A DNA stretch of 64,000 bases, taken from positions 310,001 through 374,000 of the forward strand of contig NZ_QGMY01000008.1 in NCBI RefSeq assembly GCF_003173355.1. Reading direction: 5' to 3'. A model generated the notes under the pieces. The model made no database searches. It was not told the origin of the DNA and worked only from the letters and a program-made list of their open reading frames with translations. The DNA comes from Methanospirillum lacunae (GTDB taxonomy: Archaea; Halobacteriota; Methanomicrobia; Methanomicrobiales; Methanospirillaceae). Positions 25,972 through 35,306 of the stretch are shown in pieces (positions within the stretch are counted from its first letter, which is position 1; every line of letters starts with the position of its first letter). Both the position numbers and the translations under genes were made by a program.

Positions 25972-27564
25972 ATGTGCACATGCAGTCTGAAAGATCGTCT
26001 TTCTCTCTCTCCGACTAGGATATTTATTCTCATATTCCTTGTGGGACTCCTCGTCCGGATTATATTACCTGAAATCAAACTTCTTCATCATGATGAAGCG
26101 ATCCACGCCTGGTTTACCTATGATCTGATTACCAAGGGTACCTATTTGTATGACCCGATGTATCATGGTCCGCTTCTCTACTATATTACTGGAGCAGCAT
26201 TTCTGCTTTTCAAGGATTCCGATATTATTGTCAGATTTCTTCCCGGGCTTTTTGGAGCAGCGATCATTCCATTTTTCTGGATTTTATATCGGGAAGGATG
26301 GATAAAACGCAACCATGCCCTGGTCGGAGCATTATTCTTTGCAATATCTCCGTGTATGGTCTACTTTTCCCGTTTCCTTAGGCATGACATTTTTCAACTC
26401 TTCTTTACAGTGGCCTTGCTTGTTTTTCTCCTCATGTACTTTGACAAAGGGCGATGGCAACATGCAGTCGGTGCAGCAATATGTGCTGCATGTGGTCTCT
26501 GTTTAAAAGAGGATATGCCCTTTACACTTCTGATATTTGGTTTATTTTTCATGTTCATGCTCTGTAATGGGCGAATTGCCCTGCCATGCACATGGAGACG
26601 CGATCTCATTTCAAGCCTTTTGATCATGGTCGCAATCGGTGCGACTTGTTATACTACTTTTTTTATTCATCCAGAAATGTTTATTCAGGCTCCTTTCAAG
26701 GCAATTGAACACTGGATGGGAATCAATGGTCAATGCCGTCTTTGCGGAGGTCCATATTGGTATCTTCTTATTCTGGGTTTATACGAGGTTCCAATTGCTC
26801 TTCTTGCCGGCGTTGCAGTCTGGCAGTACGGTATCCGCGAGAGAGGGTTTTCAGAAATAAAAACCGGAATTGCCTCTTATCTGACATACCTGCAGAAGAA
26901 AAGTGGCTTATTTAAACCTTATGTGGGCATTGGAGATCGTTCCCGGTTTATTTTCCTTTTTGCCTTATATTGGACTGTTCTGTCTATGATTTTTTACGCG
27001 TATGTAGGTGAGAAAGTTCCCTGGCTTATTATACACCAACTCTTTCCGATTATCCTGCTTGCATCCTATGATATCCGATCCCGGGTTAAGTTCATCGCAG
27101 TTACTATTGCCTGTATCTTCCTGTTTGTGATGATGGTTCATGTTTGTTACACACCAACTGACATTAACGAACCGATTGTACAGGTACAAAATAGTGAGGA
27201 TATACGAGAGGTCATGAAACTTATCGATGATTCAAATTCTGTAGTTATCGCTACCGATAATTACTGGCCTCTACCCTGGTATTACCGCGGGGATAAATGG
27301 GACAAAATTTCATTCTATGGACAGAAAGTAGATCCCTCTGTCTTTGAATCAAAGCATCCAGATCTTGTAATCACTCACGACACTGAAAGTTATCCTACTC
27401 TCCCGGGTTATGAGAAAAGGCAGTATAAACTCAGTTACTGGTTCTCCTGGTTTGATAACAAGGATCGGATCCCTGAATACTATCTTTTTAGAGATGGGAA
27501 GATGGGAAGCATCAATCTTGATGTCTTTGTAAAAGAAAAACCGAATCTGGGTATTGCTCAATAA
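25972..27564 (+). CDS. Agl23-like (TIGR03663-type) membrane protein, GT39/PMT-like glycosyltransferase
   Basis: The 530-residue product has about ten transmembrane helices. Its GT-C-like opening, LLHHDEAIHAWFTYDLITKGTYLYDPMYHGPLLYYITGAAFLLF, includes the acidic pair after the first helix that is characteristic of dolichyl-phosphate-sugar-dependent transferases. The pattern fits the archaeal Agl23/TIGR03663 group linked to lipid-carrier flipping or protein glycosylation. A related GT-C-like protein (DUF2298 type) occurs at 33183. It stands alone with no clear Shine-Dalgarno at the ATG. Sugar and acceptor are unknown. Confidence 0.75.
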   Translation: MCTCSLKDRLSLSPTRIFILIFLVGLLVRIILPEIKLLHHDEAIHAWFTYDLITKGTYLYDPMYHGPLLYYITGAAFLLFKDSDIIVRFLPGLFGAAIIPFFWILYREGWIKRNHALVGALFFAISPCMVYFSRFLRHDIFQLFFTVALLVFLLMYFDKGRWQHAVGAAICAACGLCLKEDMPFTLLIFGLFFMFMLCNGRIALPCTWRRDLISSLLIMVAIGATCYTTFFIHPEMFIQAPFKAIEHWMGINGQCRLCGGPYWYLLILGLYEVPIALLAGVAVWQYGIRERGFSEIKTGIASYLTYLQKKSGLFKPYVGIGDRSRFIFLFALYWTVLSMIFYAYVGEKVPWLIIHQLFPIILLASYDIRSRVKFIAVTIACIFLFVMMVHVCYTPTDINEPIVQVQNSEDIREVMKLIDDSNSVVIATDNYWPLPWYYRGDKWDKISFYGQKVDPSVFESKHPDLVITHDTESYPTLPGYEKRQYKLSYWFSWFDNKDRIPEYYLFRDGKMGSINLDVFVKEKPNLGIAQ

Positions 27565-27731: not shown

Positions 27732-28964
27732 TTAAAAGAGCTCATCATACTGATGAGATTTCTTAGTTTTCGTAGATGAGCGTTTTTTCCATCCAAAGGA
27801 TCCTCCTCCACCTTTTCCACTTCCACCTTTACCTTTACCGCCGCCTCCACCACCACGCCTTTTTATGAACAGGACAGCACCGGCAATGATTGCGATAATG
27901 ACTACAACGATAATAACCTTGGGGAGAATGGATGATACTGTAGCACCTATGTCAGGCCCTGAGCTCACCGGTGTCTGGTTTAGATCATTATTGAGATTTT
28001 GGGTATCATTAAACACTTCTTTGGCTTTGGTAAATGCATCCTCTGCTTTCTGCTTTGCATCAGCATACTTACCCTGATCAAAGAGTTCCTGAGCATTAGT
28101 TGCATACTCGGCCGCAAATTCACGTTTGGTGATGATTGGCGACATACGTGGATCTGTTCCCATCTTCTTATCTGTCTTGAAGTACGTGATCCACTCATCA
28201 GTACGATCTATTGCTTCTTTTGCATCTGCAATCGTTTTCTGGGCAATACCCATATCCAGATAGGTGTATCCATCCTGAACATAGGTACCAGCATTCTCCA
28301 TGTATATTTTTGCATTGGCAAAAGTCTCCTTTGCTGCTGTATCAAGTGCAGCATTTGCATCTTTGACTTTTTGATCAGCTTTTGAAGTGTCAATACCGTC
28401 GGCTTTATATTTCGCGATATCTGTCTGCAATGTCTTGACTTTTGTTTTTACTGAACTAATGTCTCCAGTTAGTTCATTTGGATTTGTAACAAATGCAGAA
28501 ACGTTTTTTACTTGTTCTTTAACCTTGTTATTTGCACCTGTGGTACTTATACTCACTAACTCAATTTGCTTGGAAGAATTGACTTTAGGGGCATTTCCTT
28601 TCAGTGAAACCTTAACCTGTTCTTCCTTGTCTTTATAGGATAGTTCCCATCCTGTGAGGCTTAACTGGCTTTTGCTGGATGCAGGTCGGGGGTTCTCTAC
28701 ACCATCAAGTACGATAACATAGTTCCAGATTGGGTTATCAAGTTGGGTGGAGAGGAGGATATTTTCATCACTGGGAAAAGTTTCACCTGCAGTTGAAACG
28801 AAATCGATTTGAAAATCAGCAGTGACATTTGTCTTTCCAGATTCGAGGTCTCCAGCAGGTTTAACGTTGACATACCCGACATCAACCCCTGCCAGAACCG
28901 GGGAGATTGCAAGTCCAAACAGGACCAGCAGTGAGATAATGAGTGTTCCAGTCTTCATGCGCAT
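27732..28964 (-). CDS. Secreted, membrane-anchored coiled-coil protein coupled to CetZ
   Basis: The 410-residue product has a signal peptide (MRMKTGTLIISLLVLFGLAISPVLA), a beta-rich domain to about residue 150, and a long alpha-helical coiled-coil region (about 160-330, rich in Ala, Lys and Asp). A C-terminal transmembrane helix (VIIVVVIIAIIAGAVLFI) and a cytoplasmic tail of Gly/Lys/Ser repeats ending HQYDELF complete it. The ATG at 28964 lies one base after the CetZ stop, so translation is coupled. The overall shape is a surface sensor or scaffold linked to the cytoskeleton. I do not recognise a named family. The positively charged tail could contact CetZ, DNA or the membrane face; this is inference. 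Confidence 0.8.
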   Translation of the reverse strand: MRMKTGTLIISLLVLFGLAISPVLAGVDVGYVNVKPAGDLESGKTNVTADFQIDFVSTAGETFPSDENILLSTQLDNPIWNYVIVLDGVENPRPASSKSQLSLTGWELSYKDKEEQVKVSLKGNAPKVNSSKQIELVSISTTGANNKVKEQVKNVSAFVTNPNELTGDISSVKTKVKTLQTDIAKYKADGIDTSKADQKVKDANAALDTAAKETFANAKIYMENAGTYVQDGYTYLDMGIAQKTIADAKEAIDRTDEWITYFKTDKKMGTDPRMSPIITKREFAAEYATNAQELFDQGKYADAKQKAEDAFTKAKEVFNDTQNLNNDLNQTPVSSGPDIGATVSSILPKVIIVVVIIAIIAGAVLFIKRRGGGGGGKGKGGSGKGGGGSFGWKKRSSTKTKKSHQYDELF

Positions 28965-28965
28965 C

Positions 28966-30147
28966 TCATTCAAACAATGGTTCAATACTCTCATCGAGTT
29001 TTATCTTGTTCTCAACATCAATTCGTTCTGAGGTTGCCTTTGTCTCCTTGGCAATCTCGAGAAGATTTGTGACCCGTGGTGCGTCTGCAATTGATGCGAG
29101 AAGAACAACTGCGGCAACAAACCTGCTCTGTGCAGGGAAGTCTCCACCTCTCACTTCAACACCTGCAATGTTTTCCTCAACCCAACTCTTAGCTTTTTCG
29201 ATCCCCTTTCGATCTAGTTCATCTGGTGGCCCGGCTACCAACACAAGGGCACGACTTGCCGTGGAGTACTCGCAGGGGAGAGTAAGCCGTCCGAGCATTG
29301 CCCTTCGGACAAGAGAAAGAACACGCGAAGTCCGGTCTTCTCCCATCAATTTATCTTCTGGGCGGCGCTCTTCTACTTGATTCCGTCGTAGCATCCGTCC
29401 TAGAAGTCCTACTTCAGGTTCAGGAGTTTGCCCTCCAACTTCACTGATGGCATACCCGACCGAACTAATGCCCCCGCCTTTGAGTGTATTGATTATTTCA
29501 CTCGAGTCAACTACCATTTCTCCTACATGGCCCAGTGATCCAACTTCACCAGCCCTGAAGAGAAGGCCAAACCTACGGACAATTTCTTCGTTAAGCCTGT
29601 CAAAAGCTCCTTTAATACTTTCGCCTTCATTTTTCCACGCACTGTTGTCAAAGAGAATTACATTATCTGCTTCTTTAACCAGTGTGGCAAGGCTTCGTGC
29701 CGCATTGTATGAATATAGCCTTCCTTCTTCAGGGGCAGGAAGAATTGCAAGTACATAGACCGGTTCTGTATAGATTTTTTTGAGGTGCCGGGCAAGAACA
29801 GGGGCACCTCCGGATCCGGTTCCACCTCCTAGTCCTGCCACAATAATGAACGCTTCTGTCTCACCGATCCCTTTGCGATCGATAGCGTTCATAACGATAT
29901 CGATCTCATCAAAGGTTATCTGGGCTCCGGTGTCGTTATCTGTTCCTACTCCATGCCCTTTTACTGTAGTCTGACCAATTAGAACCCGATCTTCGAAATC
30001 GAGGTTCTGAAGTCCCATGAGATCAGTGCGGGCGGTATTGACTGCAATAGCACGGAAACTTCCTCCCGATGCTCTTTGGTCAAATTCGATGAACTTGTCA
30101 ACGATTTTGCCTCCTGCCTGACCGAATCCTATAAAGAATACTTTCAT
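28966..30147 (-). CDS. CetZ-type FtsZ/tubulin-superfamily GTPase
   Basis: The 393-residue protein has the tubulin signature GGGTGSG at residues 107-113, the N-terminal FFIGFGQAGGKIVDKF nucleotide-binding turn, and helices following the T7-like region. The sequence is closer to archaeal CetZ (FtsZ3-like) than to FtsZ1/FtsZ2 in its spacing and its lack of a C-terminal FtsZ tail. CetZ proteins control cell shape in haloarchaea; methanogen members are less studied. It forms a tight pair with the coiled-coil membrane gene downstream, and is divergent from the glycan operon at 30278. Confidence 0.88.
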   Translation of the reverse strand: MKVFFIGFGQAGGKIVDKFIEFDQRASGGSFRAIAVNTARTDLMGLQNLDFEDRVLIGQTTVKGHGVGTDNDTGAQITFDEIDIVMNAIDRKGIGETEAFIIVAGLGGGTGSGGAPVLARHLKKIYTEPVYVLAILPAPEEGRLYSYNAARSLATLVKEADNVILFDNSAWKNEGESIKGAFDRLNEEIVRRFGLLFRAGEVGSLGHVGEMVVDSSEIINTLKGGGISSVGYAISEVGGQTPEPEVGLLGRMLRRNQVEERRPEDKLMGEDRTSRVLSLVRRAMLGRLTLPCEYSTASRALVLVAGPPDELDRKGIEKAKSWVEENIAGVEVRGGDFPAQSRFVAAVVLLASIADAPRVTNLLEIAKETKATSERIDVENKIKLDESIEPLFE

Positions 30148-30277: not shown

Positions 30278-31513
30278 ATGAGGATAGGGATCATAGGCGG
30301 AGGTCTTGCCGGTCTTGTCGCCGGGTATTCGCTTGCTGAGGTCCATGATGTCGTTATATTTGAGCAGGAATCAGATCTTGGTGGTCTTCTCTCCTCTTAT
30401 AGGATCGGTAATTATTCCATCGAGCGGTTTTATCATCACTTCTTCTCTGGTGATACAACTCTGATGACTTTGCTTGATGAATTAGGACTTTCAAGTGAGA
30501 TAATCTGGTTATCGGGCTCCACTGGTTCCTTTACTGATGGCGCGATACACCCCCTTACAACTCCGTTTGAGATTCTTCGCTATCCATACCTGAACCTCCT
30601 TGAAAAAGCAAGGCTAGGTCTCTTTACCAAACAAGCCTCGCATATTGATATGGCTCCCCTCGATGCCATATCAGCTCATGATTTTATCATTTCCAACCTT
30701 GGAGAAAGGATATATCATTCATTCTTCGAGCCACTTCTCAAATCGAAGTTTGGTCAGAATTCAGATCTTGTTTCAGCAGCATGGCTCATTAGCCGTGTGG
30801 CTATAAGGTCAAATCGTGGAGTTGCTGGAGAACGTTTAGGTTACATTAAAGGTGGGTTTTCTGTTTTTATCGATTGCCTCTCTGATGCGGCCCGTAATAA
30901 CGGGTGTACAATCCGAACTGAAGTCCCGGCAAAGTCCGTTATTCAGGTCACTACATCCACTCAACCTGGATGGAAGATCAATGATGAGTTTTTTGATCTG
31001 GTAATTGGAACTGTAAGCCCTCGCATACTTCAGAGCCTTGGCGTGCCTAATATCCCATCAATTCCATACCAGGGAGCAGCATGTCTGACCCTCGCGCTCT
31101 CCCGTGATGTTACTAAAGGTACGTACTGGCTGAATATCACGGATCCAGCCCCTTATGGTGCTGTTGTTTCTCATACAAACTTCGCCCCGTTTGAGTGGTA
31201 CGGGGAGCATCTCGTGTATCTAGCTTCATATTTTTCTGGAGATCCTGATCCTAATCTCAAGGAAAAGATGCTATCTGATTTCTGCACAAAATTTTCTGTA
31301 GATCCGAGCGAAATACACTGGAGTAGGATCGCAATTGATCGCGATGCCGGTCCTCTGTATCTCACTGGATATAGGGATCATCTTACCGATCCGGCTGTAC
31401 CTGGACTATACCTTGCAGGGATGTTCTCACCTGAAAACTACCCTGAACGGAGTATTGAAGGCTCTGTAAAGGCAGCCCGGCGAGTCGTGGAGGGTATTCG
31501 AAACCGTGAGTAA
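30278..31513 (+). CDS. FAD-dependent amine-oxidase/protoporphyrinogen-oxidase-like protein
   Basis: The 411-residue product opens with the Rossmann motif MRIGIIGGGLAGLVAGYSLAE, followed by FEQESDLGGLLSSYRIGNYSIERFYHHFF. It ends with PGLYLAGMFSPENYPERSIEGSVKAARRVVEG, the C-terminal FAD contact. The layout matches NAD(P)-binding oxidoreductases used in surface glycan and polysaccharide loci as well as carotenoid and heme oxidases. It overlaps by 8 nt a GT2 glycosyltransferase, so a role in sugar or lipid-carrier modification is more likely than heme synthesis. Substrate unknown. Confidence 0.8.
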   Translation: MRIGIIGGGLAGLVAGYSLAEVHDVVIFEQESDLGGLLSSYRIGNYSIERFYHHFFSGDTTLMTLLDELGLSSEIIWLSGSTGSFTDGAIHPLTTPFEILRYPYLNLLEKARLGLFTKQASHIDMAPLDAISAHDFIISNLGERIYHSFFEPLLKSKFGQNSDLVSAAWLISRVAIRSNRGVAGERLGYIKGGFSVFIDCLSDAARNNGCTIRTEVPAKSVIQVTTSTQPGWKINDEFFDLVIGTVSPRILQSLGVPNIPSIPYQGAACLTLALSRDVTKGTYWLNITDPAPYGAVVSHTNFAPFEWYGEHLVYLASYFSGDPDPNLKEKMLSDFCTKFSVDPSEIHWSRIAIDRDAGPLYLTGYRDHLTDPAVPGLYLAGMFSPENYPERSIEGSVKAARRVVEGIRNRE

Positions 31514-32225
31514 TATAATTCAATCATTCATCTCCGTGGTTATTCCCGTCTATAATGATCTGCCAGCCCTGAAAGAAGCGGTTCCTCTTACCCTCAAGAT
31601 GATGGATGACGTTTTTTCCGGGTTTGAAATTATTATTGCTGAAGATGCAAGTACTGATGGTTCCACTGAATGTGCAGCGTCATGGCAGGAAAAGGACTCA
31701 AGAATAATTCACCTACACCGTGATCAGCGACTTGGTCGTGGATCCGCTCTGACTACTGCAGCCTTACAGGCAAAAGGTGATATATTCTGTTACTTTGACG
31801 TTGATCTCGCAACTGATATGTCATACCTTCCTCAACTTATCAGAGCAGTCACCGATGGTGCGGATATTGCAACCGGCTCGCGTCTTTTATCAGATAGTAA
31901 TATCACCCGTAGCCTGGGTCGTGAGGTTAAGAGTCGTGGATATAACTGGCTTGTCAGGTTCATTCTTCGAAGCAGGCTGAAAGATCATCAGTGCGGGTTT
32001 AAGGCTTTTAATAAAGACAAACTGCTTTCACTCCTTCCAGAAATTAAAGATACGCATTGGTTTTGGGATACTGAAGTGCTGGTTCGTGCACAACGAAAAG
32101 GGTATGTGATTGAGGAGATCCCGGTCATATGGCGGGAAGGACCGGGAACTACAGTCAAGTCACAGGATATCTGGAAAATGGGTCGCTCAATACTAAATCT
32201 CTGGTGGAAACTTCATGTACCGTAA
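31506..32225 (+). CDS. Family 2 glycosyltransferase, dolichyl-phosphate sugar synthase-like
   Basis: The 239-residue enzyme has the GT-A signature FISVVIPVYND, IIAEDASTDGS and the DxD-like YFDVDLATDM, plus SRLLSDSNITRS and GFKAFNK typical of dolichyl-phosphate glucose/mannose synthases. It probably transfers a sugar from a nucleotide sugar to a polyprenyl phosphate on the cytoplasmic face. It overlaps its upstream neighbour by 8 nt and its downstream flippase-like gene by 11 nt. Together these genes look like a small N-glycan or glycolipid pathway. Confidence 0.87.
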   Translation: MSNIIQSFISVVIPVYNDLPALKEAVPLTLKMMDDVFSGFEIIIAEDASTDGSTECAASWQEKDSRIIHLHRDQRLGRGSALTTAALQAKGDIFCYFDVDLATDMSYLPQLIRAVTDGADIATGSRLLSDSNITRSLGREVKSRGYNWLVRFILRSRLKDHQCGFKAFNKDKLLSLLPEIKDTHWFWDTEVLVRAQRKGYVIEEIPVIWREGPGTTVKSQDIWKMGRSILNLWWKLHVP

Positions 32226-33186
32226 AATATTTGCCCTAATTTTGTCCCTCCTCTTGGCTGTTGGTATCATCGGCGTCATGCTTTGGCGTGTTTGGGGTGA
32301 TTTGAATGCAGCACTTCAGTATCTGCACCCTGTTTATCTTGTTCCGGCTGTACTGATCTGTGTAGTTGCCTGGTTCTCCCGTGGATGGCGTTACAAGGTC
32401 ATTCTTGCCCGGCTTAGTGTAATAGTACCGACGGTCTTTGCCACTGCCTGTATCTATCTCTCACAAACCGTTAATCTGCTTGTTCCTGCCAGATTGGGTG
32501 ATTTGATCAGGATTATTCTTGTTAAGCATGAGTATGATGCTACAGTCTCACAAGGGCTCTCCTCAATTGTTGTGGAACGTGTTTTTGATATCATCACGGT
32601 TGCATTTCTGGGTCTCATCTCCGTCCTCTTTGTTCTGAATGTCCCTGAATGGGCACTCTCTCTTATTGTAATCCCATTGGTTCTTGGTGCATTATTCTTT
32701 GGTGTTCTCCTCTTTATGGGGCGCTTTTCATCAGAAAATAAGTACCTCGGCTACCTCCTGACTATGCTCAATGAGGTAAAAGAAGCCTCTCTTACTCCTT
32801 CCACTGCGATAATTCTCTTCTTCTCATCGGTGGGTATCTGGATCATGGATACGATAATCTGCGTATCTGTGTCAGCGATGTTTAACCAGGAAATCCCTTT
32901 GGCAGTTGTCCTTCTTGCGATTGTTGCTGGAAATCTGGTAAAAGCTGTTCCGGTAACTCCTGGAGGTCTTGGGACGTATGAAGCCTCTCTGGCAATAATT
33001 TTTGAATTGTCGGGTGTTGCCCCTGCTACTGCGACGTTAATTGCGGTGATTGATCATCTCATTAAAAACCTAATAACTGTTATCGGTGGAGTTGCATCAA
33101 TTTTCTATTTTGGGAACTGGGTAGTCCCTGAAATGATGGCAAGTATAAAACGTCGCCTGTCAGATAGTGGAGAGGAAGATGTATGA
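32215..33186 (+). CDS. Lysylphosphatidylglycerol-synthase-TM-like (UPF0104) membrane protein
   Basis: The 323-residue product has about eight hydrophobic helices and the family motif ARLGDLIRIILV, followed by VVERVFDIITVAFLGL and a later KAVPVTPGGLGTYEASLAIIF. The family is often listed as flippase-like or AglD-C-terminal-like and accompanies GT2 enzymes that load lipid carriers. It may translocate or help transfer the lipid-linked sugar. It overlaps the genes on both sides (11 nt and 4 nt), indicating one transcript. Confidence 0.85.
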   Translation: MYRKIFALILSLLLAVGIIGVMLWRVWGDLNAALQYLHPVYLVPAVLICVVAWFSRGWRYKVILARLSVIVPTVFATACIYLSQTVNLLVPARLGDLIRIILVKHEYDATVSQGLSSIVVERVFDIITVAFLGLISVLFVLNVPEWALSLIVIPLVLGALFFGVLLFMGRFSSENKYLGYLLTMLNEVKEASLTPSTAIILFFSSVGIWIMDTIICVSVSAMFNQEIPLAVVLLAIVAGNLVKAVPVTPGGLGTYEASLAIIFELSGVAPATATLIAVIDHLIKNLITVIGGVASIFYFGNWVVPEMMASIKRRLSDSGEEDV

Positions 33187-35306
33187 TTTCTCCTGGGGAT
33201 ATTACCCTCATCCTTGCATGGATAGTTCTCTTGTTTTTTCTTCACTTCTCACTCATCCCTTTTCTTCAGCCTCACTTTAAAAAAATATTCATTCCTCTTG
33301 CTTTCAGCCTTTCACTGCTTCTTTACACCCTTATAAGTTTCTGGAGTGCATTCTTCCATCTTCCTGTTCAACTGGCACTGTTCCCCTTCGTTCTTGGAAT
33401 TGGTTATTCATATGTGAAGATCGGGAGAAAAAACGGATTAAGAGGATTTTTCACATGTTACTCGGTTGTAACATCGGAATGGAGGTACTACCTTCTTTTC
33501 ATTGTTGTCTTCCTGGCCATGTTATCCCTCCGAATTTACAGCCCTGACATAAGTTCTGCTGAAAAGTTCATGGATCATGGGTTCATCTCCTCAATGATGC
33601 GAATGCCAGTTATCCCTCCTCTTGACCCTTGGTTTGCTGGAGGTGATCTCTCTGTTTATTATTATCTCGGTCATTGGATGCTTGCATCTCTTGGTCTTAC
33701 AGCGGGCATTCCTTCAACAGTCCTCTTTACCATGGCACTGCCGACGATAGCTGCCTATACTGCTGTCAATATGTATGGAATTGGTCATCTTCTCCTCCCC
33801 CGTCTTCGTCTCATTCCGGTGGTGCTCCTTTTTTTAATGAATCCTGCTTTTGTTCATCTTGCTTTAGCAGGTACTGAATGGAGTAAACTTCTCTGGGATA
33901 GTACTCGGGTTATTGACGGGACCATAAATGAATACCCGCTGTTTTCTTTCATTTTCGGAGATGTACATGCCCATGTTCTGGATTTTTTTCCCCAGACTAC
34001 TCTGATTCTTCTTATCACTCTTGCAATAACGTGTTGGAAGGAGATGCATCCAGTATCGCGTCTCGTTTTGATACTGTCTTCAGGTCTTGCACTAGGTTCG
34101 ATCCCTCCCACAAATACATGGGATATTCTTATCCAGGCCCCCCTGGTTCTTATTACCGGGGCTATCCTGCTGTTTCATTCAACCAGTATCTATCCTGTAC
34201 AAGATCGGTCCCTTTCACTTGTAAGCGGACTCATACAGAAGGTCAGACAACCTGAACCTGGGAGAAGGATCATCAGACACTTTTCAGAGGGAAGAGGGGC
34301 ATTTCTATACCTTCTGCTGGTACCCCTGATTGGTGTTCTTTGTTATCTTCCCTATTATGTGACGTTGAAAGCACAGGGTATAGAAGGGATTGGGATAGTT
34401 CCTCTTCCATCTTCGCTCTCTGAATTTTTACTCGTGAACGGATGGTTCATTCTTATACTTGTCATCTCACTTCTTCCGATATTCAGACGGTCACCCTGGC
34501 TTCTTATCATTGCTGTCCCGTTTCTTGTCACCGGTTATATTGCTGCAGCAATACCCGCGGTGCTTCTTTGTGCAATACTTGTCAGACATAAGGGTGCTTG
34601 TGATCTCCTGGCCGGGGCAGGTCTTGTTATCCTTCTATTCTGTGAGATCTTCTATCTGAAGGATAACATGGGGGACCAGTACTTTCGGATGAATACAGTT
34701 TTTAAACTCTATATTACTGCCTGGATTCTCTTTAGTGCAGCAACAGCCGGTATGCTCGGAAGGCTCCTTCTCCCCTTGGTCAGTAAACCATCCTGGTCAG
34801 CCCGAATTATTGATGGAGCAATCCCATTGATCCTTCTCCTCCTGCTTGTCCTGCCTGTCATGGTAACAGCAACTCATGCAGGACCGCATACCCCGACGTT
34901 GGATGGGCTTGCATGGCTTTCGGTATCGCATCCTGACGATCTTGCAGCAGTTACGTGGCTTCGAAGCCAAGAAGGAAACCTTACGCTGGTGGAGGCTGAA
35001 GGTGGTGACTATGGGTATTACTCACGAGTTTCTGCGTTCACCGGGATACCGGCATTTCTCGGATGGCCGTTCCATGAATCAATGTGGCGTAATGATACAC
35101 CCTCTGGTTGGTATAATCAGAGGGTAACGGCTATTCGGGCAATCTATGAAGAGCCATCAAAGTTGGTAAATCTTATGAAGATGTATCATATTGACCTCCT
35201 GTATGTTGGACCTACAGAAGGTGAAAAATATAATGTTACCCTTCCTGAAACTGGTCTTTCACCGGTGTTCCATCAGGGTACTGTCACGATATACCGTGTT
35301 GCCTGA
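33183..35306 (+). CDS. DUF2298 (Chlor_Arch_YYY-type) membrane protein
   Basis: The 707-residue product has a dozen or more transmembrane helices and the eponymous YYY motif in DLSVYYYLGHWMLASLG near residue 160. It also has the periplasm-facing acidic stretch FIFGDVHAHVLDFFPQ and a soluble C-terminal region (TWLRSQEGNLTLVEAEGGDYGYYSRVSAFTGIPAFLGWPFHE). The family co-occurs with Agl23-like proteins such as the one at 25972 and is thought to be a GT-C glycosyltransferase. It ends the four-gene operon from 30278. Confidence 0.88.
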   Translation: MISPGDITLILAWIVLLFFLHFSLIPFLQPHFKKIFIPLAFSLSLLLYTLISFWSAFFHLPVQLALFPFVLGIGYSYVKIGRKNGLRGFFTCYSVVTSEWRYYLLFIVVFLAMLSLRIYSPDISSAEKFMDHGFISSMMRMPVIPPLDPWFAGGDLSVYYYLGHWMLASLGLTAGIPSTVLFTMALPTIAAYTAVNMYGIGHLLLPRLRLIPVVLLFLMNPAFVHLALAGTEWSKLLWDSTRVIDGTINEYPLFSFIFGDVHAHVLDFFPQTTLILLITLAITCWKEMHPVSRLVLILSSGLALGSIPPTNTWDILIQAPLVLITGAILLFHSTSIYPVQDRSLSLVSGLIQKVRQPEPGRRIIRHFSEGRGAFLYLLLVPLIGVLCYLPYYVTLKAQGIEGIGIVPLPSSLSEFLLVNGWFILILVISLLPIFRRSPWLLIIAVPFLVTGYIAAAIPAVLLCAILVRHKGACDLLAGAGLVILLFCEIFYLKDNMGDQYFRMNTVFKLYITAWILFSAATAGMLGRLLLPLVSKPSWSARIIDGAIPLILLLLLVLPVMVTATHAGPHTPTLDGLAWLSVSHPDDLAAVTWLRSQEGNLTLVEAEGGDYGYYSRVSAFTGIPAFLGWPFHESMWRNDTPSGWYNQRVTAIRAIYEEPSKLVNLMKMYHIDLLYVGPTEGEKYNVTLPETGLSPVFHQGTVTIYRVA

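Follow-up and report, generated by a model that had tools for sequence, protein, structure and literature searches.

The division anchors ZipA and FtsA recognise a C-terminal peptide carried by FtsZ, the binding pocket lying on the anchor; the actin-family filament MreB has in RodZ a transmembrane partner, a single-pass linker running from the filament to the extracytoplasmic side with its N terminus in the cytoplasm; and in eukaryotes, integrin tails link to actin. In archaeal division, FtsZ likewise bears a conserved C-terminal peptide and its anchor SepF the binding pocket, as described in the covered part of PMC8178401. For the tubulin-family CetZ proteins, the study closest to the present work is the survey of cetZ gene neighbourhoods by Brown and Duggin 2023 (PMC9856176). 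In the parts covered, this survey notes the Halobacteria-like CetZs of Methanomicrobiales and Archaeoglobales as uncharacterised, bases its non-haloarchaeal analysis on 27 cetZs outside the Halobacteria branch with few similarities found for these orders, and draws uncharacterised neighbours as grey arrows in a figure, its main text naming no membrane partner. The covered parts of PMC11621097, PMC10869688, PMC8178401, PMC7617429 and PMC10606840 likewise yielded no description of the protein reported here or of any CetZ membrane anchor, and neither did the searches made of the open-access literature. Within that scope, the preliminary description of this locus, which had called the gene pair undescribed, is in agreement with the literature. 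As far as the covered parts of these papers go, they leave unexplained how CetZ filaments reach the membrane or act on it.

Here we describe a gene lying directly behind a Halobacteria-like cetZ, whose product we read, on a modest balance of the evidence, as a membrane anchor or envelope linker of CetZ1-type filaments acting through a short motif at the end of its tail. With SepF, FtsA and ZipA this partner has in common the proposed membrane tethering of a tubulin-family filament and recognition through a short peptide, but no sequence family, and the conserved peptide sits here on the membrane protein instead of on the filament protein. RodZ differs from it by an opposite topology, unrelated domains and an actin-family filament. 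Integrin- and dystroglycan-type linkers share with its predicted plan an Ig-like ectodomain, one helix and a short cytoplasmic tail; the likeness in fold is generic, with a Z near the common level, and no homology is claimed.

The window, a stretch of 64,000 nucleotides from Methanospirillum lacunae (contig NZ_QGMY01000008.1), carries on its minus strand a cetZ gene (28966..30147) encoding a Halobacteria-like (CetZ1-like) tubulin-family GTPase of 393 aa. This protein scores above the Pfam cut-offs for both CetZ_C (E=1e-71) and Tubulin (E=1.1e-31). Among solved structures, 4b46 is its best match with 424 bits, against 78 bits for 3zid, another methanogen CetZ which we take to be the deep-branching CetZ of Methanosaeta/Methanothrix; judged by these bit scores, the window CetZ appears to belong to the Halobacteria-like (CetZ1-type) group, closer to haloarchaeal CetZ1. 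According to the covered part of PMC9856176, 4b46 is the CetZ1 of H. volcanii. The partner gene (27732..28964, minus strand) is an open reading frame for a predicted type I membrane protein of 410 aa, whose ATG (28964-28962) is separated by a single base from the cetZ TGA (28968-28966), just as first noted in the preliminary description; translation might instead begin in frame further upstream, at 28994, or at another Met two codons into the ORF. A short inverted repeat, CTCATCA...TGATGAG, overlaps the final codons of the partner gene (27741-27757) and gives a terminator-like match on both strands. Behind the other, non-Halobacteria-like CetZ of the same genome (L002/L004), the fetched stretch contains no ORF of more than 110 aa directly following on the same strand.

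The partner begins with a signal-peptide-like N terminus, MRMKTGTLIISLLVLFGLAISPVLA (residues 1-25; 28890..28964, minus strand as for all partner features below), and an N-terminal hydrophobic segment is also seen in the partners of other clades. AlphaFold2, run with a 50-sequence alignment (mean pLDDT 86.5), predicted this signal helix, then an Ig-like beta-sandwich ectodomain (residues 27-160; 28485..28886) and a helical ectodomain (residues 162-329; 27978..28481; pLDDT mostly >94) made of five helices spanning residues 162-188, 194-212, 215-265, 274-296 and 300-329, that is 27, 19, 51, 23 and 30 residues. A membrane helix (residues 347-370; 27855..27926) is predicted from both the sequence and the model, and is followed by a presumably cytoplasmic Gly/Lys-rich tail (residues 371-410; 27735..27854) that is disordered in the model and ends in the peptide YDELF (27735..27749). 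The signal peptide, the single membrane helix and the basic tail had all been recognised in the preliminary description; the helix lies near the C terminus, and the tail is also rich in Gly. The earlier reading of the ectodomain as one long coiled coil gave way to a beta-sandwich followed by five helices, the putative coiled coil corresponding in the predicted structure to the helical half, and so to only part of the ectodomain. The tail is ~40 residues long in the window partner versus ~5-10 in most other genera, a Gly-rich spacer of 30-odd residues preceding the C-terminal peptide in Methanospirillum.

Fold searches, which effectively covered the beta domain only, retrieved by VIA-align the Ig-like domains of pilins, adhesins and integrins, with a best Z of 9.2 that the tool qualifies as slightly above common; the match to an integrin ectodomain domain reached Z 8.1 over 117 residues, and many pilins and adhesins scored alike. 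Foldseek gave 3 matches at E<=0.001, all of them bacterial adhesins or pilins. Searched up to E of 1, the window partner matched no Pfam or NCBIfam family, SepF and ZipA included. A haloarchaeal partner was predicted by AlphaFold2 (mean pLDDT 76.2) to be built alike, with a smaller number of helices, and the profiles of the methanogen and haloarchaeal partners aligned with each other over 107 beta-domain columns (probability 99.2%, E=1.6e-19). This domain also occurs in L122 (G160:C60:122541), L126 (G157:C1:1476274) and L152 (G503), proteins held in the membrane at their C terminus by a PGF-CTERM-like or other anchor; their PGF-CTERM-like label comes from inspection of the sequences, and the domain would be a shared surface module. 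Its presence at the N terminus of surface-type, membrane-anchored proteins such as L122 and L126 supports an outside placement of the partner ectodomain. The window partner itself shows an N-terminal domain in common with some of these PGF-CTERM (archaeosortase) proteins and no sign of being an archaeosortase substrate, with no PGF-type site before the helix, no family match in Pfam or NCBIfam, and its conserved residues placed after the helix. Taken together, the signal peptide, ectodomain, helix, basic cluster and conserved end would describe a surface protein that presents the cytoplasm with a short ligand.

Within Methanomicrobiales, window-type CetZ was found in 219 of 232 genomes and partner homologs in 216, both reaching 134 of the 135 good genomes. 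Among the matches listed, the two genes were adjacent on one strand in 124 of the 126 genomes showing both, with a spacing by match ends of 2-174 nt (median 32); in the two remaining genomes, G014 has a second CetZ beside its partner, and the partner of G128 begins at nt 197 of its contig. In Methanocalculus-type genus g24 (L183, L184; also L290), a second Halobacteria-like cetZ copy has no partner behind it. The pair is bordered in the window by a convergent PMT-type glycosyltransferase-like gene (25972..27564, plus strand; Pfam PMT_2 3.5e-12) and by a divergent block (30278..35306, plus strand; Pfam) of amine-oxidase-like, glycosyltransferase 2, LPG_synthase_TM and DUF2298 genes, a setting that hints at an envelope or glycan theme. 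Across 60 fetched loci, the members of this block lie beside the pair in 33, 25, 31 and 33 of 38 genera, respectively. These divergent neighbours stay in place about as often as the pair does: conserved synteny is a general feature of Methanomicrobiales, and adjacency there proves little by itself. Since glycan-type genes too are kept beside the pair in 25-33 of the 38 genera, adjacency within the order was rejected as sole proof; what carries the argument is the evidence from other classes and the tail motif.

The partner profile finds relatives in Archaeoglobaceae and other families, and the fetched loci revealed a predicted type I membrane protein behind cetZ in Archaeoglobi, ANME-1/Methanophagales, Alkanophagales, Syntrophoarchaeum, Methanocellales-labelled MAGs, some further groups and haloarchaea. 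Of 80 named loci, 68 carry the partner directly behind cetZ, either in full (62) or truncated at a contig end (6); in 2 the sequence stops at cetZ, and the 10 without a partner comprise 7 from Archaeoglobaceae/Archaeoglobales/Geoglobus/Archaeoglobi and one each from Methanocalculus, Syntrophoarchaeum and Methanophagales. In the Archaeoglobi JdFR-42 (L128; G410:C2), the Halobacteria-like cetZ and its partner are immediately preceded by another CetZ-like gene of shorter length, making three consecutive genes. All 30 partners in the fetched haloarchaeal loci are directly behind cetZ, the match starting inside the cetZ ORF, 26 nt short of its end. One of these pairs belongs to a Haloferax locus (L223) whose CetZ1 is ~99% identical to 4b46, which shows that the genus Haloferax has the pair. 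The preliminary description had left the conservation of the pair to be checked, and the pair turned out not to be confined to this genome, spanning Methanomicrobiales, Archaeoglobi, ANME-1 with related groups, and haloarchaea; conserved with its tail across a phylum, it is not a product of chance.

The distribution among haloarchaea is uneven. The haloarchaeal partner profile has a match in 40 of 77 CetZ-bearing genomes, distributed over our families f13 (10/10), f17 (13/13), f23 (12/30), f27 (1/1), f29 (3/3) and f33 (1/1), with none in f21 (0/18) and f35 (0/1) despite their CetZ. In loci L171, L172 and L180-L182, from this partnerless part of the haloarchaea, the gene after cetZ is presumably cofC. 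The 37 genomes in which this profile found no partner imply that a CetZ1-type CetZ either dispenses with the partner or uses another anchor.

The last peptide of the partner, of which YDELF in the window is the local form, follows right after the membrane helix and the basic cluster. The first homologs collected all end in [WY]DEL plus one residue (30/30), and neither the 19- nor the 50-sequence alignment shows any change at D, E or L, while the remainder of the protein has diverged to ~30% identity. Extended to an aromatic residue, D, one of E, K or R, and L, with at most three further residues, the motif closes 154 of 184 distinct complete cetZ-adjacent partners versus 1 of 4,536 other ORFs, a tally made on chosen loci with background ORFs of at least 100 aa, ORFs cut by contig ends being dropped and duplicates removed by their last 150 residues. 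The 30 exceptions come from ANME-1, Alkanophagales, Mnemosynella and Methanocellales-type genomes, one Syntrophoarchaeum and eight haloarchaeal partners; Alkanophagales end in PPLG, Mnemosynella and Methanocellales-type partners in [FW]xRL, and the haloarchaeal variants in forms such as YSKL or FSKL. In the ANME-1/Methanophagales partners (L162-L164, L168-L170, L302, L305, L307-L310), the pair is kept and the proteins end in RRKRG[VI]Y, RRKRGIF or the like, none of which contains aromatic-D-x-L.

At the DNA level, a pattern for WDELG followed by a stop occurs in 188 of 231 whole Methanomicrobiales genomes, compared with 4 of 231 for the reversed control, although it misses other forms such as WDELA or the YDELF of the window genus. 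In all 115 genomes checked, out of 122 taken from the 188 matching, it follows the end of cetZ at a distance of 1,093-1,232 nt and in the same orientation; among the matches listed only G224 has it twice. Its codons vary synonymously, indicating that the peptide itself is what is kept. A corresponding haloarchaeal pattern of the YD[KR]LG type, TAYGAYMRRYTNGGNTRR, occurs in 22 of 77 genomes, and 20 of its 23 matches read as partner ends from their coordinates, the three others, one each in G516, G532 and G336, reading as unrelated.

Away from cetZ, all 18 paralogs within the order lack the motif, including two full-length copies with a membrane helix (L131, ending RWEDN, and L132, ending RWSEY). 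Two motif-bearing copies counted as non-adjacent (L026 and L096) are both at contig ends. Furthermore, where Archaeoglobaceae partners lie distant from cetZ on one contig (G359, G269, G342; L130) or on other contigs than cetZ (G386, G310, G406), they still end in [WF]DELK. The motif, on which the preliminary description is silent, is new here and, read from sequence, is the strongest hint of a receptor in the cytoplasm. Its WDEL/YDEL forms recall the KDEL retention signal, which was considered on account of this resemblance. KDEL acts at the lumenal side of the eukaryotic ER; the motif belongs to what is predicted to be the cytoplasmic terminus, and a genome has essentially one copy of it. The likeness was judged superficial and a KDEL-like role rejected.

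The receptor need not be CetZ. The two genes may simply be co-expressed as parts of a shared envelope-growth programme, the tail binding some other conserved protein such as a MinD-type ATPase, a protease or an export component, a reading that we hold to be unlikely. It would sit well with junctions that look translationally coupled in all clades, with the many CetZ-bearing haloarchaea that lack the partner and with the unlinked genes of some Archaeoglobaceae; it is at odds with a pairing that persists across classes and with motif-bearing copies that follow CetZ when the motif-less paralogs do not. A little less likely still, in our estimation, is that the ectodomain senses the state of the S-layer or its glycans and that the tail acts on CetZ to control its assembly or turnover, no filament being held at all. 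The resemblance in fold of the Ig-like ectodomain to adhesin and pilin domains, the glycan-type genes adjoining the pair in Methanomicrobiales and the shortness of the tail in most genera are compatible with such a sensor, in which, nevertheless, neither a signalling domain nor any further cytoplasmic part can be recognised, and which accounts for the motif no better than an anchor does. That the peptide has no bearing on CetZ and serves generically for membrane insertion, sorting or degradation is very hard to believe: its place immediately behind a membrane helix and basic cluster is one where signals for topology or turnover may be found, but such a signal should recur on other membrane proteins, and the motif is met in that single background ORF, with WDELG-stop essentially single-copy per genome and at the partner gene wherever checked.

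On the CetZ side, the protein ends in SIEPLFE (28969..28989, minus strand) after a variable linker, as seen in the alignment and in the list of CetZ C termini, and [IL]xPLF is the conserved form of this end in related CetZs. An acidic residue precedes PLF in 149 CetZs whose partner has the motif and in 8 whose partner has none, versus 2 and 22 for a basic residue (mostly cases of motif loss), three rows being unclassified in this tally, among them L187, which truly reads IEPL. This CetZ peptide was considered as the docking site of the partner and rejected: the sequences compared are related, and CetZs without an adjacent partner retain the same end, which is therefore probably not where the partner docks. 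The partner system is not obligatory for CetZ, given that no partner was detected in nearly half of the haloarchaea examined, that the motif has been lost in several anaerobic lineages still carrying the pair and that partnerless CetZs keep their end.

Under the preferred reading of the partner as an anchor or linker of CetZ1-type filaments, the protein would be exported by its signal peptide and cross the membrane once, exposing its Ig-like domain and helical stalk outside and displaying to CetZ, on a short basic cytoplasmic tail, the terminal aromatic-D-[E/K/R]-L. CetZ, or an adaptor bound to it, would recognise this last peptide; filaments would thereby be held at the membrane and the ectodomain would touch or sense the S-layer or sheath, the partner acting like RodZ for MreB, or like ZipA or SepF for FtsZ. 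What we infer here is that the tail binds CetZ, that the ectodomain meets the S-layer, and which way the effect runs. The trans-envelope link first proposed in the preliminary description fares well as to topology, the required one being predicted in every clade examined, and less well as to its coiled coil, which would make up only part of the ectodomain. At 1.5 A per residue, the 51-residue helix alone would span ~7.7 nm. In M. hungatei, a 12-nm gap lies below the S-layer, according to the covered part of PMC11641113; as modelled, this helix together with the beta domain could cross much of such a gap.

A broader reading, to which we would give somewhat less than an even chance, is that of an old transmembrane linker coupling a tubulin-family cytoskeleton directly to the S-layer or sheath via a five-residue peptide, in an integrin-like manner. 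Just as tentatively, this linker may have served methanogens, Archaeoglobi, ANME-related groups and many haloarchaea alike, the sheath-building Methanospirillum having gained a Gly-rich spacer and kept the peptide. A Haloferax with a CetZ1 near-identical to that of the genetic model H. volcanii carries the candidate behind its cetZ1, which makes the question of how CetZ filaments reach the membrane directly testable. If the proposed role is true, a tubulin-family system would own a transmembrane, surface-contacting partner, and the control of archaeal cell shape would be tied to the S-layer; the protein encoded behind cetZ is a good candidate for this missing link between cytoskeleton and envelope.
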